From: Deltaproteobacteria bacterium
GTDB lineage: Bacteria > Myxococcota > B64-G9
NCBI GenBank assembly: GCA_030591445.1
Contig: JAUVBB010000003.1
Span: 1 to 53,412 of the forward strand
DNA length: 53,412 nt
Direction of reading: 5' to 3'
In this document: positions 1,754-27,189 of the stretch, in pieces
Layout: each line of letters begins with the position of its first letter
How positions within the stretch are numbered: the stretch's first letter is position 1
The notes under the pieces: model-generated
Seen by the model: the letters and a program-made list of their open reading frames with translations, nothing else
Database searches by the model: none
Told to the model about the DNA's origin: nothing
Position numbers and translations under genes: made by a program

Positions 1754-2866
1754 TTAACGGGCGGCTTCGTCAGTGATGCGAGCGGCTTCCATCAACAGGC
1801 CCTGCACACTGGTTTCGAGCTCGTCGTTGCGGCTAACATCCTGGGCAGCAAACTCAAACTGGCCGGCTTTCCAATCCAGCAATTCGACCATCATGTCCAT
1901 CTGCCCGCGACTTTCGGCGGCACCTTCGATTTCAACCGCCAGCGGTCGGCCCTCGCGAATGAAAATTCGGGCCGTGCCATCCCCCACCACCAGAATGACA
2001 CCGGTATGTCGTTCGATTTCAAGCATGGACAACACCGCCGGCAACGAGACCTGCTCCAGATCGCCACGGAGGGTCTTGTTTTCGACCGCCGAGCGATGAC
2101 TGGCCATGGTGCGCGCAACCAGGCGCTCGACGCGGGCCACCAATTCTTCCGCTTGATAGGGTTTGGCAAGGTAGTCATCAACGCCCAAACGATAACCGCG
2201 CAAGCGCTCTTTCTCGCCACCCAGGCTGGTCTGGAAAATCACCAAGACCGAGGCCAATGACGGCCGTGAACGAATCATGCGCAAAAAATCCCAGCCATCC
2301 ATGCGCGGCATCTGTACGTCGGTCAGGATAACGTCCGGCGGATCTTTCAGGCAAATGGCCAGGCCTTCCAGCCCGTCCTCTGCCATCTTCACTTTGTCGC
2401 CACGCTTTTCGAAGACCGCGGCGGCACTCTCGCGATAGGACTTGTCGTCGTCGACGACCAACACTTTTAGCGAGCGCTGAACCGCTGCGGACATCGACCT
2501 TTCGGCAGCCTCGCTGGATTTGACCGAGATAAATTCCTCGATGCGCTGCATGCTTTCTTCGAGCATGTCGAGAAACTCAATCCCTAAACCGGAGGGCCGC
2601 CCGGGACCAGAATCTTTGAGGCCGCGCACATAGATAACTTTGCCGATACAACTGACCTGACCGCCGCCTTCGGGTAAACCGATATGCAGGCGAATCACGG
2701 AATTCAGGGGCAAAAAACGCTCGGTCTTGATAAACAAGCCACCTTTGGAAATATTGCGCGTGTAATCGACCAGCAACTTGTCCATGTCGGGATAACTAAC
2801 GCGAAACTCGGTTTTCACTCGCACCGACTGCCGCCGCTTCTCCCAATCTTCATTTTTTTCGGACAC
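1754..2866 (-). CDS. PilZ - receiver - DUF4388 fusion protein
   Basis: Three-domain cytoplasmic regulator of 370 residues. PilZ (about 8-120) keeps both parts of the c-di-GMP motif: an Arg-rich start (RRQSVR) and NISKGG. The receiver (about 138-255) has its phospho-Asp near 183 in LTDVQMPRMDG and a KPY Lys motif, so it looks active. DUF4388/PATAN (about 275-365) begins LRGDLEQVSLPAVLSMLE, a fold common in myxobacteria and thought to mediate protein contacts. The ORF track starts at a TTG at 3007, but GTG at 2866 is preferred: GGGAGAG sits 7 bases upstream and the extra 47 residues do not look like a domain. The same domains occur split over two adjacent genes at 28095-30784. Output is unknown; combined c-di-GMP and phosphorelay input is inferred. 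Confidence 0.87.
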   Translation of the reverse strand: MSEKNEDWEKRRQSVRVKTEFRVSYPDMDKLLVDYTRNISKGGLFIKTERFLPLNSVIRLHIGLPEGGGQVSCIGKVIYVRGLKDSGPGRPSGLGIEFLDMLEESMQRIEEFISVKSSEAAERSMSAAVQRSLKVLVVDDDKSYRESAAAVFEKRGDKVKMAEDGLEGLAICLKDPPDVILTDVQMPRMDGWDFLRMIRSRPSLASVLVIFQTSLGGEKERLRGYRLGVDDYLAKPYQAEELVARVERLVARTMASHRSAVENKTLRGDLEQVSLPAVLSMLEIERHTGVILVVGDGTARIFIREGRPLAVEIEGAAESRGQMDMMVELLDWKAGQFEFAAQDVSRNDELETSVQGLLMEAARITDEAAR

Positions 2867-3079
2867 TTTCGATCTCTCCCGCGAACCGATTGGTACCACA
2901 AAGATTAAATCTGTCGATGCCAGTAGAAAGTTTACTGAGTAAAAAGTTTGATTGCAAGAATATGTTGCGCTACCAAGTTCGGCCACCAAAGTGACCACTT
3001 GAACCAAGGCTTCTTACTGTGCCTAAGCGGCTGTTAAACTATGAGAAGGTAAGATGACATCTCGTTACTAAGTAGCTCT

Positions 3080-3096
3080 TGCGCCAGTTTGGCGCA
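3080..3096. promoter_or_regulatory. NtrC-like palindrome, candidate enhancer
   Basis: Perfect inverted repeat TGCGCCA-gtt-TGGCGCA. Its layout resembles the known NtrC operator core (GCACCA...TGGTGC), with one changed base per arm. Its centre is about 100 bases upstream of the -24 element at 3187, a usual place for activators of sigma-54 RNA polymerase. No T-run follows, so a terminator is less likely. Binding by an NtrC-family protein is inferred. Confidence 0.5.
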
Positions 3097-3113
3097 CTTA
3101 TAAATATTACCGA

Positions 3114-3125
3114 TTGTAATTACAA
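3114..3125. promoter_or_regulatory. Perfect 12-base palindrome
   Basis: TTGTAATTACAA, a perfect AT-rich palindrome between the NtrC-like repeat and the sigma-54 promoter, centred about 67 bases upstream of the -24 box. It could be a second regulator site (activator or bending protein). Short AT-rich palindromes also arise by chance in such spacers. Confidence 0.3.
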
Positions 3126-3186
3126 ATATCCTTTTTTTTCTGCAAACATTACAACACATTACACGGTCTAGATTTTAGTGCATTTT

Positions 3187-3201
3187 TGGCACATCCTTTG
3201 C
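3187..3201 (+). promoter_or_regulatory. Sigma-54 (-24/-12) promoter for the amidase gene
   Basis: TGGCACATCCTTTGC matches the consensus TGGCACGNNNNTTGC at every fixed position but one (A for G at position 7), with correct spacing between the GG and GC elements. Transcription would begin near 3213, giving an untranslated leader of about 47 bases before the ATG at 3260. It lies in a non-coding spacer just upstream of a gene on the right strand, with palindromes at enhancer distance. Confidence 0.8.
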
Positions 3202-3259
3202 TTATAGACTGGTAATGTATTCCTTGCTGCGATGCACCCCCGATCGTGAGGAGAAAAAC

Positions 3260-4687
3260 ATGAAACAACAAGAACTTATGACCATGATGGTGATTGTATC
3301 CCTGGGCGTGTTGCTTAACGCCTGTGCCCCAGGCGAAATCACGACCATGGGAGATCTGGGGGAACTATACAACACTCATGGGCAGAAAGCAGACGCCCTC
3401 TTTGATGCCAACGGCTATGCCGCGCCCGTGTTTGCCCAGAGTCCTTTTGTCCGGGTCGGTCTCATGTGGGACGCACAGGAAGATACCTTGCTGGAGGGCC
3501 GCTTCGCCGATGAAGCCGGAAACTGGACTCGCTGGCAATCCATTGACGCCAATTGGCAAGAGGATCTAGCCCACAATGCCCATCTGGATGTCGAAGGCAT
3601 GAACAAACTTGGGTTTCAACTTCGCCTGGTGGCGGGTCCGCCGCCCAGCCGGCTCTGGACGGAAGGCATCGACGAATTAGGGGAAGCCATCGTCGATGGC
3701 TACGATGATGACATGCGTTCCAGTTCAGCGGCGCTGGTCGCTTATGCCGCGCCCAGCGATCTGGTCAACTCGCGCAGTGTGTGGGGCGCGCGCTCGCCGG
3801 CCTGTTCTTCGTCGGCGCATACGCCTTCAATGGTCACGGTACACCACAGCGCTACCCCCTTGCCCGACTCTATCTCGCCCGCCGCCCGGGTTCGACAAAT
3901 TCAAAGCTACCACATCGATAGCCGGGGCTGGTGTGACATCGGCTACCACTTCATGGTGGACTGGAACGGAGACATCTGGCAGGGACGCGCGGAGACCGTC
4001 ACCGCGGCCCATGTTGCCTATCACAATACCAACAATATCGGTGTGTCTTTCCTGGGCACCTATACCAACACCGCCGCCACCGCCACCCAACTCGACAAAG
4101 CGGGCGCCTTGCTAGCCTGGCTGGCAGACGTCTACATGATTCCGGTAGATCGCGACCATCTTCTCGGACACCGCGATTGGGTCGCCAATGAGTGCCCGGG
4201 CGAACAACTCTACCACCAACTCGACGACATCCTGGCACGGGCCAGCGGCGGTGGTGCGGGCCCCGAACCGGCTGGATTTCTAAAAGGCGTGGTGTTTGTT
4301 GATCGCGGGCTAGGCACCGCGGACATGAGCGAGCGCGTGGGCGGCGCCGTCATTTCCCTTAGCACTGGGGCAAGTACCCAGGCCGCGAGCACGGATGCCT
4401 ATTGGTCCATCGAACTGCCGGCTGGTACTTACACGGTTACCGCTTCAGCGGACGGTTTCCTAAACGGGGTCAAGACCTGCACGGTGACCGCGGGCCAAGA
4501 CAGTTGGTGTTCGATAGGGATAGAACCCTTCCTGGATCCATGTCAGGGAGAAACTTACGTGGGTCGCTGCGACGGCAACACCGTAGTCTGGTGTGAAAGT
4601 GATCGGATCTATTATTGGAATTGTTCCGACGCGGGCCGCGTCTGCGCCTACGATCCCTATTGGCAATACTATTCTTGCCGGCGATAA
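3260..4687 (+). CDS. PGRP-type peptidoglycan amidase lipoprotein
   Basis: Predicted exported N-acetylmuramoyl-L-alanine amidase, which would cut the bond between glycan and stem peptide in the cell wall. The start is ATG 3260 (GAGGAG upstream) rather than the track's 3215, giving a lipoprotein signal ending LLNAC. The amidase/PGRP domain spans about 165-325: HHSAT (about 195-199), IGYHFMVD, and GHRDW...ECPG supply the expected zinc ligands (His, His, Cys) and catalytic Tyr. A carboxypeptidase-regulatory-like beta domain follows (PAGTYTVTASADGF), then a Cys-rich tail of about 45 residues. The N-terminal 140 residues are unassigned. It sits behind a sigma-54 promoter, unusual for a housekeeping amidase, suggesting a role in a developmental or envelope-stress programme (inference). 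Confidence 0.85.
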   Translation: MKQQELMTMMVIVSLGVLLNACAPGEITTMGDLGELYNTHGQKADALFDANGYAAPVFAQSPFVRVGLMWDAQEDTLLEGRFADEAGNWTRWQSIDANWQEDLAHNAHLDVEGMNKLGFQLRLVAGPPPSRLWTEGIDELGEAIVDGYDDDMRSSSAALVAYAAPSDLVNSRSVWGARSPACSSSAHTPSMVTVHHSATPLPDSISPAARVRQIQSYHIDSRGWCDIGYHFMVDWNGDIWQGRAETVTAAHVAYHNTNNIGVSFLGTYTNTAATATQLDKAGALLAWLADVYMIPVDRDHLLGHRDWVANECPGEQLYHQLDDILARASGGGAGPEPAGFLKGVVFVDRGLGTADMSERVGGAVISLSTGASTQAASTDAYWSIELPAGTYTVTASADGFLNGVKTCTVTAGQDSWCSIGIEPFLDPCQGETYVGRCDGNTVVWCESDRIYYWNCSDAGRVCAYDPYWQYYSCRR

Positions 4688-5029: not shown

Positions 5030-5590
5030 TCAACTAGGATTTTCTTTCAGGTGCCGAATGAAGGTATCGATGTCCACGAACTCGAACACGTAGTGCCAGA
5101 GCATGATGACGTCTTTGTTCCTGACTCTTACCGGTTCGTTTTTCTTTAAGCGGACGTTATTGACCTTGGTACCGTTGGTCGAGCCCATATCCACCAAACT
5201 GTAGCTGTCTTCCCCTTCCATGAGAAAGGCCGCATGCAGCTTGGAGATCTTGCTTGCCCGGATGATGATGTCGTTATTCTTGGCCCGCCCCACGGTGATT
5301 TTTGATTTGAAAACATTCCGGTGGGTCTTGTGCACGGCCACCACTCGCTCGCCTTCGGGCATGCCTTTTTCTTCGTTCAGCAGGCTGTCGGCGCTGACTT
5401 GAATGGTCTTGGGGCCCAAGAAATCGGCTCGATCGGACATGCCGTCGGTCGCCAGCAAAAACATGTACGGGTGCGGATGGTAGCGCCGAAAGACTTCTTC
5501 CCCTTTGTCCTTCAACTCTTGCGACAATTGCTCAACCGAGATAGTCTCGATCTCTGTAATCTCACCTTCCTTCGAATCAATAACAGGCAT
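5030..5590 (-). CDS. FHA-domain protein (paralogue A)
   Basis: Cytoplasmic FHA protein, expected to bind phosphothreonine peptides made by Hanks-type kinases. The FHA core has TVGRAKNNDIII, SKLHAAF and GSTNGTKVN, the canonical Arg, Ser, His and Asn contacts. An N-terminal part of about 95 residues (IETISVEQLSQELK...) is shared only with the divergent neighbour at 5721. ATG 5590 is chosen because it gives an N terminus similar to the paralogue; the track start at 5641 adds residues lacking similarity. A weak -10-like TATCGT lies 7 bases before this ATG. Co-directional with the PilZ gene at 4696, pointing to a two-gene operon joining phosphothreonine and c-di-GMP reading. Confidence 0.82.
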   Translation of the reverse strand: MPVIDSKEGEITEIETISVEQLSQELKDKGEEVFRRYHPHPYMFLLATDGMSDRADFLGPKTIQVSADSLLNEEKGMPEGERVVAVHKTHRNVFKSKITVGRAKNNDIIIRASKISKLHAAFLMEGEDSYSLVDMGSTNGTKVNNVRLKKNEPVRVRNKDVIMLWHYVFEFVDIDTFIRHLKENPS

Positions 5591-5684
5591 AAGCACTACG
5601 ATAATCGAAAACAATCGCCGACGCAAGGATCCTTTGCACATCTTTCCCGCCCCAAAGGAAACAATAATTTAATCGGACCTCTAC

Positions 5685-5712
5685 TTGACAATTTTACGCT
5701 ATCAATTATGCT
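5685..5712 (+). promoter_or_regulatory. Sigma-70-type promoter for FHA paralogue B
   Basis: TTGACA at 5685-5690, a 16-base spacer, and TATGCT at 5707-5712. The -10 box ends 8 bases before the ATG at 5721, so transcription would begin almost at that codon, as in leaderless messages. If translation instead starts at ATG 5739, AGGA at 5728 would serve as ribosome-binding site. Confidence 0.55.
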
Positions 5713-5720
5713 GAAATTAT

Positions 5721-6275
5721 ATGGCACAGGAAAAAGATATGCAGCCGAATGAAATCGAGACGCTTTCGGTTTCAACTCTGAGCAAAGAACTCAAAGAACT
5801 GGGTGATAGCGGTTTTCGGCGCAAATACTCTCATCCTTTTCTTTTTCTGGTGGCCACCGATCGTTTCCCCGGCGGAACCTCCGAGTGGCTCGATCCCAAA
5901 ACCATTCAGACCATGCCCGACAGTGCCTCTTTGGCAGAGAAAACTTTGCCTTCACGAAAATGGGCGGTGCCGCTGCTTAAGTCTGATCGCAATGTGTTTA
6001 GTTCCAAAATCACGGTCGGCCGGGCCAAGAACAACGACATCATCATTCGCGCCGGCAAGATTTCCAAGTTGCATGCGGCTTTTCTCATCGAAGACAACGA
6101 GTCTTTCGGCATCAAAGACATGGGCTCGACCAACGGCACCAAAGTCAATCATGTCCTGCTCACCGAAAATGAATCGGCTACGCTCAAGGACCAAGACTTT
6201 GTCACCTTTTGGCAGTATGCCTTCGAATTTGTCAGCCTGGACACGATGGTCCAGCACCTGCAAAGCCTAATCTAA
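5721..6275 (+). CDS. FHA-domain protein (paralogue B)
   Basis: Divergent sister of the FHA gene at 5030; the two share an N-terminal region and a nearly identical FHA core (TVGRAKNNDIIIR, KISKLHAAF, DMGSTNGTKVN). The residues needed for phosphothreonine binding are present. The start is ambiguous: ATG 5721 lies 8 bases after a good -10 box (leaderless geometry), while ATG 5739 has AGGA at proper spacing. The longer form is listed because its N terminus matches the paralogue better. Convergent with glnS, 23 bases downstream. The inverted pair points to a local duplication (inference). Confidence 0.82.
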   Translation: MAQEKDMQPNEIETLSVSTLSKELKELGDSGFRRKYSHPFLFLVATDRFPGGTSEWLDPKTIQTMPDSASLAEKTLPSRKWAVPLLKSDRNVFSSKITVGRAKNNDIIIRAGKISKLHAAFLIEDNESFGIKDMGSTNGTKVNHVLLTENESATLKDQDFVTFWQYAFEFVSLDTMVQHLQSLI

Positions 6276-25154: not shown

Positions 25155-25169
25155 GCCAAGGTGACAATC

Positions 25170-26540
25170 ATGGAAGAGAAACTGTGCATCCTGATAGTCG
25201 ACGACGAAGAGGTCCTGCGGGAAATGCTTGGCAACTATTTACGCCAGGCCGGGCACGAGATAGAAGAGGCGGACAACGGGCATGCCGCGCTTGAAAAGTT
25301 GCGTTCGGGTCAATACGATCTGGCCCTGGTGGACATTCGTATGCCCAAGATGAGCGGATTGACCCTGTTGGAAAAAATCAGTGAGATCCATCCGAATCTT
25401 CCCGTGGTGATTATCACCGGGCATGGCACCATGGACACCGCCATTTCGGCCCTGAAACTAGGGGCAGTGGATTTTCTGCTTAAACCGGTCAAGTTGCAGG
25501 AACTAGACGCGGTCTTGGCGAAAGTCGCCCATGTTTCTCAATTGCGAAAAGACAAAAGCAGATTAAAGCAGACCATCGGTTTTATCCAGAGCACGACCCA
25601 TCCCCGCGGCAACGAAGGTGAGCTAAAGGGTGTCGATCCGGCTACGCAAGAGATCAGGAAGCAGATACAACTAGCGGTCAAGGGTCAATGCGATACCATT
25701 TTGATTACGGGCGACACTGGTACCGGCAAAGATGTCGTGGCCCGTGAAATCCACGCTTTAGCCAGCACACCGAAAGATCCCTTCATCCCGGTCAGTTGTC
25801 CCGCCATTCCCGATTCCCTGGTGGAGAGCGAGTTGTTTGGCCACGTAATGGGCGCTTTTACCGGTGCCATGGAAGACCGGGCCGGATGCTTCGAGCTGGC
25901 TCATGGGGGCAGCTTGTTCCTGGACGAGATCGGAGATTTGTCCGCGGCCGCCCAGGCCAAGTTGCTGCGGGTGCTGGAGACGCGTATGGTACGCCCATTG
26001 GGCGCTGCCCGGGAAATACAGGTAAAACTTAGGGTTATCGCGGCCACCAATGTTTCGCTGGAGGATGCAGTAAGAAATCGCAAGTTTAGAGCAGACCTCT
26101 TGTATCGTCTCAACGTTTATGCCATTCACTTGCTCCCCTTGCGCGAGCGCCCCAAGGATATTCTCCCCCTGGCCGATCATTTCCTGTCATCCTATGCCCA
26201 GGCCCGCAATCTACAATTTGACGGCTTTTCTCCAGAAGCTCGCCAACGACTCGAAGAGATGGACTATGCCGGAAACGTGCGTGAGCTTCGCAACATGGTC
26301 GAGCGCGCCGCCATATTACGAAGCGAAGGCCGCATCGAGGCCGATGACCTGATTCAGATGGGCCGACGCACTAAGCCGGTCAGCAATAATGCCAACCCAG
26401 TCGATAAAAAAGACGCCGAGCGCAAGCGTATCTTGGATGCCCTGGAAAAAACAAAATGGAACCGCCGTGAAGCGGCCAAAACCCTGGGCATTCCGTATTC
26501 CACCCTCCGCTATCGTATAGAGAAATTGAACATCTCTTGA
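25170..26540 (+). CDS. NtrC-family sigma-54 activator
   Basis: Response regulator that drives sigma-54 RNA polymerase. Receiver about 1-115 with phospho-Asp near 55 (LVDIRMPKMSG) and LKPVK. AAA+ domain about 150-370: Walker A GDTGTGKD (about 181), the sigma-54-contacting GAFTGA loop (about 228-233), Walker B LFLDEIGD, and the arginine-finger region. Fis-type helix-turn-helix at the end (KTKWNRREAAKTLGIPYSTLRYRIEKL). ATG 25170 with AAGG upstream is preferred over the track's GTG at 25161. A sigma-54 promoter with an upstream palindrome lies directly downstream at 26742, and another at 3187; both are candidate targets. Confidence 0.95.
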   Translation: MEEKLCILIVDDEEVLREMLGNYLRQAGHEIEEADNGHAALEKLRSGQYDLALVDIRMPKMSGLTLLEKISEIHPNLPVVIITGHGTMDTAISALKLGAVDFLLKPVKLQELDAVLAKVAHVSQLRKDKSRLKQTIGFIQSTTHPRGNEGELKGVDPATQEIRKQIQLAVKGQCDTILITGDTGTGKDVVAREIHALASTPKDPFIPVSCPAIPDSLVESELFGHVMGAFTGAMEDRAGCFELAHGGSLFLDEIGDLSAAAQAKLLRVLETRMVRPLGAAREIQVKLRVIAATNVSLEDAVRNRKFRADLLYRLNVYAIHLLPLRERPKDILPLADHFLSSYAQARNLQFDGFSPEARQRLEEMDYAGNVRELRNMVERAAILRSEGRIEADDLIQMGRRTKPVSNNANPVDKKDAERKRILDALEKTKWNRREAAKTLGIPYSTLRYRIEKLNIS

Positions 26541-26741: not shown

Positions 26742-26756
26742 TGGCATGAGACTTGC
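26742..26756 (+). promoter_or_regulatory. Sigma-54 (-24/-12) promoter
   Basis: TGGCATGAGACTTGC against TGGCACGNNNNTTGC: a single mismatch (T for C at position 6) and correct spacing. Transcription would begin near 26768, about 32 bases before the ATG at 26800. It lies in the spacer immediately after the NtrC-type gene and should drive the receiver-GAF-DUF4388-PilZ run. Confidence 0.8.
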
Positions 26757-26799: not shown

Positions 26800-27189
26800 A
26801 TGCGCATCTGTCTCACAGATTACCAACCCTTGGTGCTGACCATGCTCGGTGATTTTCTCAGGGATTTGGGGCACGAGGTTTTTTGCGCCAATTCGGGAGA
26901 ACAAATGCTGCAAGCGCTTGACCAAAGTGAGAAGCCAATAGACTTGGTGATTGCTGATTTGGAAATGCCGGGTTGCTCGGGCAATAGTCTGGTGCGCAAG
27001 CTTCACGAATTGTTTCCCAAAATCCCTATTATTTTGATGACCGGGGCGGCTTTGAATCTTTCTCCGCAGGATGCCCTGGCGAGTGGTGTTCAGGCTTTTC
27101 TGCGTAAACCCATTTGGTTGAGTGAGCTGGAGCTATTGCTGGCACGGATATCCCACCGTGACGCCAATGGGAAAGTTGAATCCCACTGA
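26800..27189 (+). CDS. Single-domain response regulator behind a sigma-54 promoter
   Basis: 129-residue receiver. The phospho-Asp is near residue 53 (IADLEMPGCSG), Thr in LMTGAA, Lys in LRKPI. The acid pocket reads LTDYQP, with Tyr in place of the second acid, so metal binding and phosphorylation kinetics may differ. The ribosome-binding site is strong (AGGAGGAG). It is the first gene after the sigma-54 promoter and is followed at 37 bases by the GAF protein. Its kinase could be the one at 24126 or another. Confidence 0.88.
   Translation: MRICLTDYQPLVLTMLGDFLRDLGHEVFCANSGEQMLQALDQSEKPIDLVIADLEMPGCSGNSLVRKLHELFPKIPIILMTGAALNLSPQDALASGVQAFLRKPIWLSELELLLARISHRDANGKVESH

Follow-up and report, generated by a model that had tools for sequence, protein, structure and literature searches.

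A conserved sigma-54 promoter and upstream palindrome before an amidase gene and their probable place in a peptidoglycan hydrolase regulon of uncultured Myxococcota

A lipoprotein N-acetylmuramoyl-L-alanine amidase is encoded at 3260–4687 on the forward strand (475 aa; Pfam Amidase_2, 8.6e-20) of the window, by which the whole 53,412-nt stretch of DNA analysed here is meant. The gene is preceded by a sigma-54-type -24/-12 element and, further upstream, by a palindrome, and the locus raises the question of whether these elements are genuine and what they might control. The Amidase_2 profile was matched with 71.8 bits against a cut-off of 26 and PGRP structures in the PDB were matched at 6e-24. 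The protein consists of a lipobox (..LLNAC), an Amidase_2/PGRP domain (aa 187–315) and a CarboxypepD_reg-like module (aa 359–415). Residues H195/H196, Y229, H304 and C312 are invariant in eight amidase orthologs; the zinc ligands (His, His and Cys) and the catalytic Tyr are presumably to be seen here in the roles known from T7 lysozyme and PGRP. The sequence ends in ..YYSCRR and gave no match to the NCBIfam MYXO-CTERM models, and the product is a lipoprotein only. A ribosome-binding site, GAGGAG, was read directly at 3248–3253 (forward strand). An open reading frame start listed at 3215 was rejected because it lies 2 nt past the predicted transcription start and because the ribosome site is at 3248–3253.

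The -24/-12 element TGGCACATCCTTTGC (3187–3201, forward strand) is intergenic and agrees with TGGCAC-N5-TTGC without a mismatch, the GG and GC being 10 bp apart; from the longer consensus YTGGCACGRNNNTTGCW it differs at GR positions only. The earlier note had placed it one mismatch from the consensus, a count that was slightly too harsh for an element that is itself sound. No other exact site occurs within the window. In the window's own genome (G000; 6.86 Mb in 610 contigs) the exact pattern was found 90 times, compared with three times for a reversed-pattern control, which puts the probability that the match at 3187 is genuine at about 96%, with its position left out of account. Counted from the C of the -12 GC at 3201, transcription is predicted to start near 3213 (forward strand), which would leave a 47-nt leader before the ATG at 3260.

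The palindrome TGCGCCA-GTT-TGGCGCA (17 bp, 3080–3096), a putative upstream activator site (UAS), starts 107 bp ahead of the -24 T, with an AT-rich spacer (73%; 3097–3186, forward strand) in between. The genome scan proposed in the earlier note, with the palindrome as motif, returned this copy as the single exact occurrence in the genome, and the enrichment of one-mismatch palindromic sites was just about twofold (29, including the window's own, versus 14 in the control). Taken alone, without conservation, the palindrome would prove little; its significance comes from its conservation upstream of both orthologous and non-homologous genes. As a stand-alone genome-wide operator it was rejected, because exact UAS copies that lack a sigma-54 element fall mostly within open reading frames.

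Eight amidase orthologs or paralogs, the window's included, were compared from six genera of an uncultured Myxococcota family; the relatives in the five other genera are 44–50% identical. Seven of these genes have retained an exact TGGCAC-N5-TTGC in the same position, 42–85 bp before the start codon, and the eighth (in G001) has the degenerate element CGGCACGATCGATGC. Upstream regions of 240 bp were searched by palindrome-constrained expectation maximization, with 25 dinucleotide shuffles as the null. A 17-bp motif, TGYGMCA-N3-TGKCRCA, was recovered in all eight upstream regions with a log likelihood of 59.9 (null 25.3 ± 2.3, maximum 30.3), and in each the palindrome lies about 100 bp further up from the sigma-54 element. 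The half-site is GCGCCA in G000 and G001 and mostly GYGACA in the other genomes, which makes the palindrome first noticed in the window one version of a diverged operator. At the sequence level both elements are thus confirmed as real, and the reading of the earlier note, that a PGRP-type amidase lipoprotein is served by a sigma-54 promoter and an activator site further upstream, is supported by their conservation in the orthologs. The gene with the degenerate promoter (G001:C11, L051; CGGCAC-N5-ATGC, the sole such case) has an intact palindrome, and its product ends right after the amidase domain without C-terminal modules.

In 27 promoters the distance from the start of the UAS to the -24 T is 79–117 bp, with a median of 100, and the UAS centre lies at -97 to -135 from the predicted start, a usual location for the sites of enhancer-binding proteins (EBPs) and inside the 80–200 bp upstream of +1 that are expected for a dyad of this type. 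Mean pairwise identity in these promoters was 64% for the UAS and 71% for the promoter element, compared with 28% for the spacer and 26% for the left flank; two conserved elements amid unconserved flanks form a clean footprint. Across 23 promoters (46 half-sites) G4 and C6 never vary, and 44 of the half-sites have A or C at position 5.

For an independent test, a weight matrix was built on the eight amidase sites alone and applied to the sigma-54 sites before NlpC/P60-type and GH25 genes that had been gathered purely by protein similarity. A UAS was found at 15 of 16 sigma-54 sites of these NlpC/P60 and GH25 lysozyme-type homologs, with scores of 12.2–20.3 at 10/11 stand-alone NlpC and 5/5 close GH25 sites; the probability of a score of at least 12 was 0.002 per window (24 000 mononucleotide shuffles), and, of the remaining 86 exact sigma-54 sites in G000, only two score as high. 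The NlpC gene of G002:C8 scored 6.5 and fails the UAS test. Further exceptions are two NlpC domains inside giant open reading frames, a G000 homolog on C18 and four remoter GH25 genes. The C18 gene is an NlpC homolog without the promoter and no GH25 match was found in G000, where the amidase alone represents the three hydrolase classes. The combined UAS and sigma-54 pattern was matched in eight of nine genomes and not once in the controls. The ninth, G003, had neither the combined pattern nor an NlpC match, and nothing in it matched the amidase domain at E ≤ 1e-20. Several further members were picked by the motif-derived pattern, so that their scores are not independent and they are weaker than the protein-selected ones; pattern-only matches with a low matrix score (L180, L185, L198, L199, L200, L201 and L206) were dropped as chance. 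The NlpC genes of G004, G005 and G008 stand second in a conserved operon under a UAS/sigma-54 promoter (G004:C357, G005:C321 and G008:C111; L284, L224 and L220), which encodes a propeller-like protein (without a Pfam match in the G005 copy) followed by an NlpC/P60-type protein with Cys-rich repeats.

Within G000 the UAS also precedes a lipoprotein gene (C36), a gene at a contig end (C237) and a gene for a small exported protein (C419). At C517:7928–8043 (L283) a UAS with a score of 19.9 and a sigma-54 element stand before VWA and trypsin domains in one reading frame; this frame has both an internal and a final MYXO-CTERM-like end and probably represents two fused genes or a frame artefact. On C372 (L132, L215) a UAS and an exact sigma-54 element lie before the gene of an FHA protein, with a gap of 206 bp to the start codon, and on G005:C428 such a promoter is followed by one gene and then by a VWA lipoprotein gene. 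Many products of the relatives carry a MYXO-CTERM-like tail (C-terminal Cys motif, TM helix and Arg cluster). Their scores straddle the curated cut-offs, the G006 amidase ortholog being above that of TIGR03382 and below that of TIGR03901. In Myxococcus xanthus MYXO-CTERM tags, which mark the myxosortase surface proteins, cause proteins to be exported by type II secretion and anchored at the surface (PMC11980579); the tails of the relatives' products resemble these tags, in contrast to the end of the window amidase. Among 79 public amidase relatives a near-consensus sigma-54 site was found upstream in 19, compared with one in the reversed control. The palindrome was also present at L348, L356, L359 and L361 in other MAGs (amidases 33–36% identical), for example as TGTGACACCCTGTCACA, and the amidase homologs in G023 and G028 are without the sigma-54 promoter; the linkage is therefore wider than the family and is not phylum-wide.

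What can be read from the DNA itself is the pair of elements, how well they are conserved, how little their spacing varies and which classes of gene they precede. The elements very probably mark a conserved sigma-54/EBP regulon of secreted or surface-anchored peptidoglycan hydrolases, of which the window promoter would be one member. We infer that sigma-54 and a single EBP act at these promoters. In the proposed mechanism a dimeric Fis-type EBP would bind the palindrome, centred near -125 in the window, and, with the AT-rich spacer looped out, would touch the sigma-54 polymerase that sits on the -24/-12 element. On a signal it would spend ATP and open the promoter, and the amidase lipoprotein would be expressed. 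The same EBP may co-activate PGRP amidases, GH25 lysozyme-type muramidases and NlpC/P60-type endopeptidases, the latter often in operons with the propeller-like protein, across this uncultured family, and the regulon may also take in some VWA/trypsin-type and other lipoproteins. The best explanation overall, a sigma-54 promoter served by a dedicated EBP within a hydrolase regulon, is considered highly probable from the sequences.

As to purpose, lysis of foreign bacterial walls, in predation or scavenging, is slightly favoured. Digestion of foreign walls is suggested because many of the products are lipoproteins and/or bear a MYXO-CTERM-like surface tag, and exported enzymes that cut glycan, amide and peptide bonds likewise suggest the lysis of other bacteria. 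The same regulon could instead remodel the cell's own envelope in development, in a sporulation-like change or under envelope stress, a possibility that we hold to be real and the less probable one. It would fit the sigma-54/EBP networks of M. xanthus, which are largely developmental (PMC6971385). It would also agree with earlier proposals that sigma-54 controls exterior and wall functions: control of the bacterial exterior has been ascribed to sigma-54 (PMC3162934), and its predicted targets in Myxococcia show an enrichment of lytic transglycosylases and type II secretion (PMC12316311). With these proposals in print, to call sigma-54 control of such a gene unexpected, as had been done, was too strong. 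Against own-envelope remodelling, the products are lipoproteins or carry MYXO-CTERM-like tags, which direct proteins outward (PMC11980579), away from the periplasmic wall of the cell itself; three cleavage chemistries together with a trypsin-like domain resemble a degradation set, and amidase genes of M. xanthus are upregulated during predation (PMC10849154). Of the regulated wall remodelling suggested in the earlier note, membership of a wider wall-hydrolase programme is supported, and the own-wall purpose is kept as the rival to foreign lysis.

A broader proposal is about as probable as not. A previously undescribed sigma-54/EBP regulon with the operator TGYGMCA-N3-TGKCRCA would co-ordinate a full set of surface-displayed enzymes for the breakdown of peptidoglycan (cutters of glycan, amide and peptide bonds, and a protease) across the whole family and beyond in uncultured Myxococcota, as a bacteriolysis switch responsive to prey or debris. 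The bacteriolytic and predation enzymes of M. xanthus (secreted amidase and glucosaminidase activities and LlpM; PMC6971385, PMC10849154) are alike in being exported Myxococcota peptidoglycan hydrolases with amidases among them, and the accessible parts of these two sources describe no shared sigma-54/UAS control for them; here, by contrast, the genes come from uncultured MAGs and three hydrolase families share a C-terminal module. Sigma-54 and EBPs have been linked to predation metabolites (PMC6971385). The EBP regulons of M. xanthus (Nla28 and the developmental cascade; PMC7910581) offer a second parallel, in Myxococcota with dozens of EBPs and with sigma-54 promoters that have dedicated upstream sites. 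The motif and the target set differ: Nla28 recognizes tandem CT(C/G)CG(C/G)AG half-sites before developmental and natural-product genes (PMC7910581). The main text of a Desulfovibrio EBP study (PMC4641369) mentions no such motif. On whether sigma-54 controls the peptidoglycan hydrolases of predatory bacteria, a literature search gave general statements only, and in literature that covered few subscription journals no description of the TGYGMCA-N3-TGKCRCA operator or of joint hydrolase control was found. How wall-dissolving enzymes are switched on in predatory or scavenging Myxococcota is poorly known. An operator and promoter common to three unrelated hydrolase families name a target set and allow the activator to be fished out and the signal to be tested; the pair may also serve as a sequence marker for wall-dissolving behaviour in uncultured genomes, and gives the view that the bacterial exterior is under sigma-54 control a concrete and conserved case.

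The palindrome had been likened to the NtrC operator. The NtrC operator is TGCACC-N5-GGTGCA, with the half-site TGCACC and A at position 4, and the ammonium transporter AmtB is a classic NtrC target. The window copy is the NtrC-like one among the conserved sites; it has the 7-3-7 geometry and is one base per half-site off this consensus. NtrC regulon promoters such as glnAp2, in which NtrC dimer sites are combined with a sigma-54 promoter, moreover share with the window promoter an exact -24/-12 element, a 17-bp 7-3-7 palindrome some 100 bp before it and the predicted looping mechanism. Nitrogen control of the amidase through NtrC is nevertheless improbable. Position 4 is G in all 46 half-sites and position 5 is mostly A, so that the half-site is TGYGMCA rather than TGCACC, and the targets are exported peptidoglycan hydrolases rather than nitrogen genes. 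AmtB (PF00909) was not found in G000, G001 and G004–G008 (7/7 genomes), and was present in all control genomes. The NtrC-family response regulator encoded in the window (25161–26540, forward strand; Pfam Sigma54_activat/HTH_8), which had been proposed to drive the amidase, lies beside a sigma-54-like site of its own, TGGCATGAGACTTGC (26742–26756, forward strand), which stands without a palindrome before a receiver-only gene (26800–27189). This site is probably a local target of that activator, and a link between the activator and the conserved palindrome is unsupported. The gene is one of 53 matches in G000 to PF00158, the domain of sigma-54 activators; about 46 of these matches are strong. 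At the G000 EBP loci examined no strong UAS was seen, and in the neighbourhoods searched by tblastn with the window activator no AAA+ activator gene lay beside the regulon genes.

Equally improbable is binding of the palindrome by a regulator of the CRP/FNR type or another non-EBP protein, acting with or against sigma-54. The consensus extreme TGTGACA-N3-TGTCACA (for example at L348) does resemble TGTGA..TCACA. The spacing is TGTGA-N7-TCACA, compared with N6 in CRP sites, C predominates at position 3, and the bases that never vary are G4 and C6. The near-fixed place of the palindrome at about -118 and its co-occurrence with -24/-12 elements are what an EBP site predicts, and sigma-54 would require an EBP in any case. 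Chance matches for both elements, with a sigma-70-type promoter serving the amidase instead, are very improbable, since against the just twofold enrichment of the palindrome alone in G000 stand the conservation in other genera amid unconserved flanks and the success of the independent NlpC/GH25 test.

The divergent neighbour of the amidase gene, encoding a PilZ-receiver-DUF4388 protein (1754–2875, reverse strand; Pfam), is given as context and lies outside the regulon on present evidence; no similar gene was found in the neighbourhoods of the amidase orthologs. Two genes for FHA-domain proteins are situated just downstream of the amidase gene (5030–6275). Elsewhere in G000 an identical element, TGGCACAGTAGTTGC, occurs five times (C118, C236, C343, C384 and C544), some copies having near-identical flanks, which suggests that a sigma-54-like site is borne on a repeated element.
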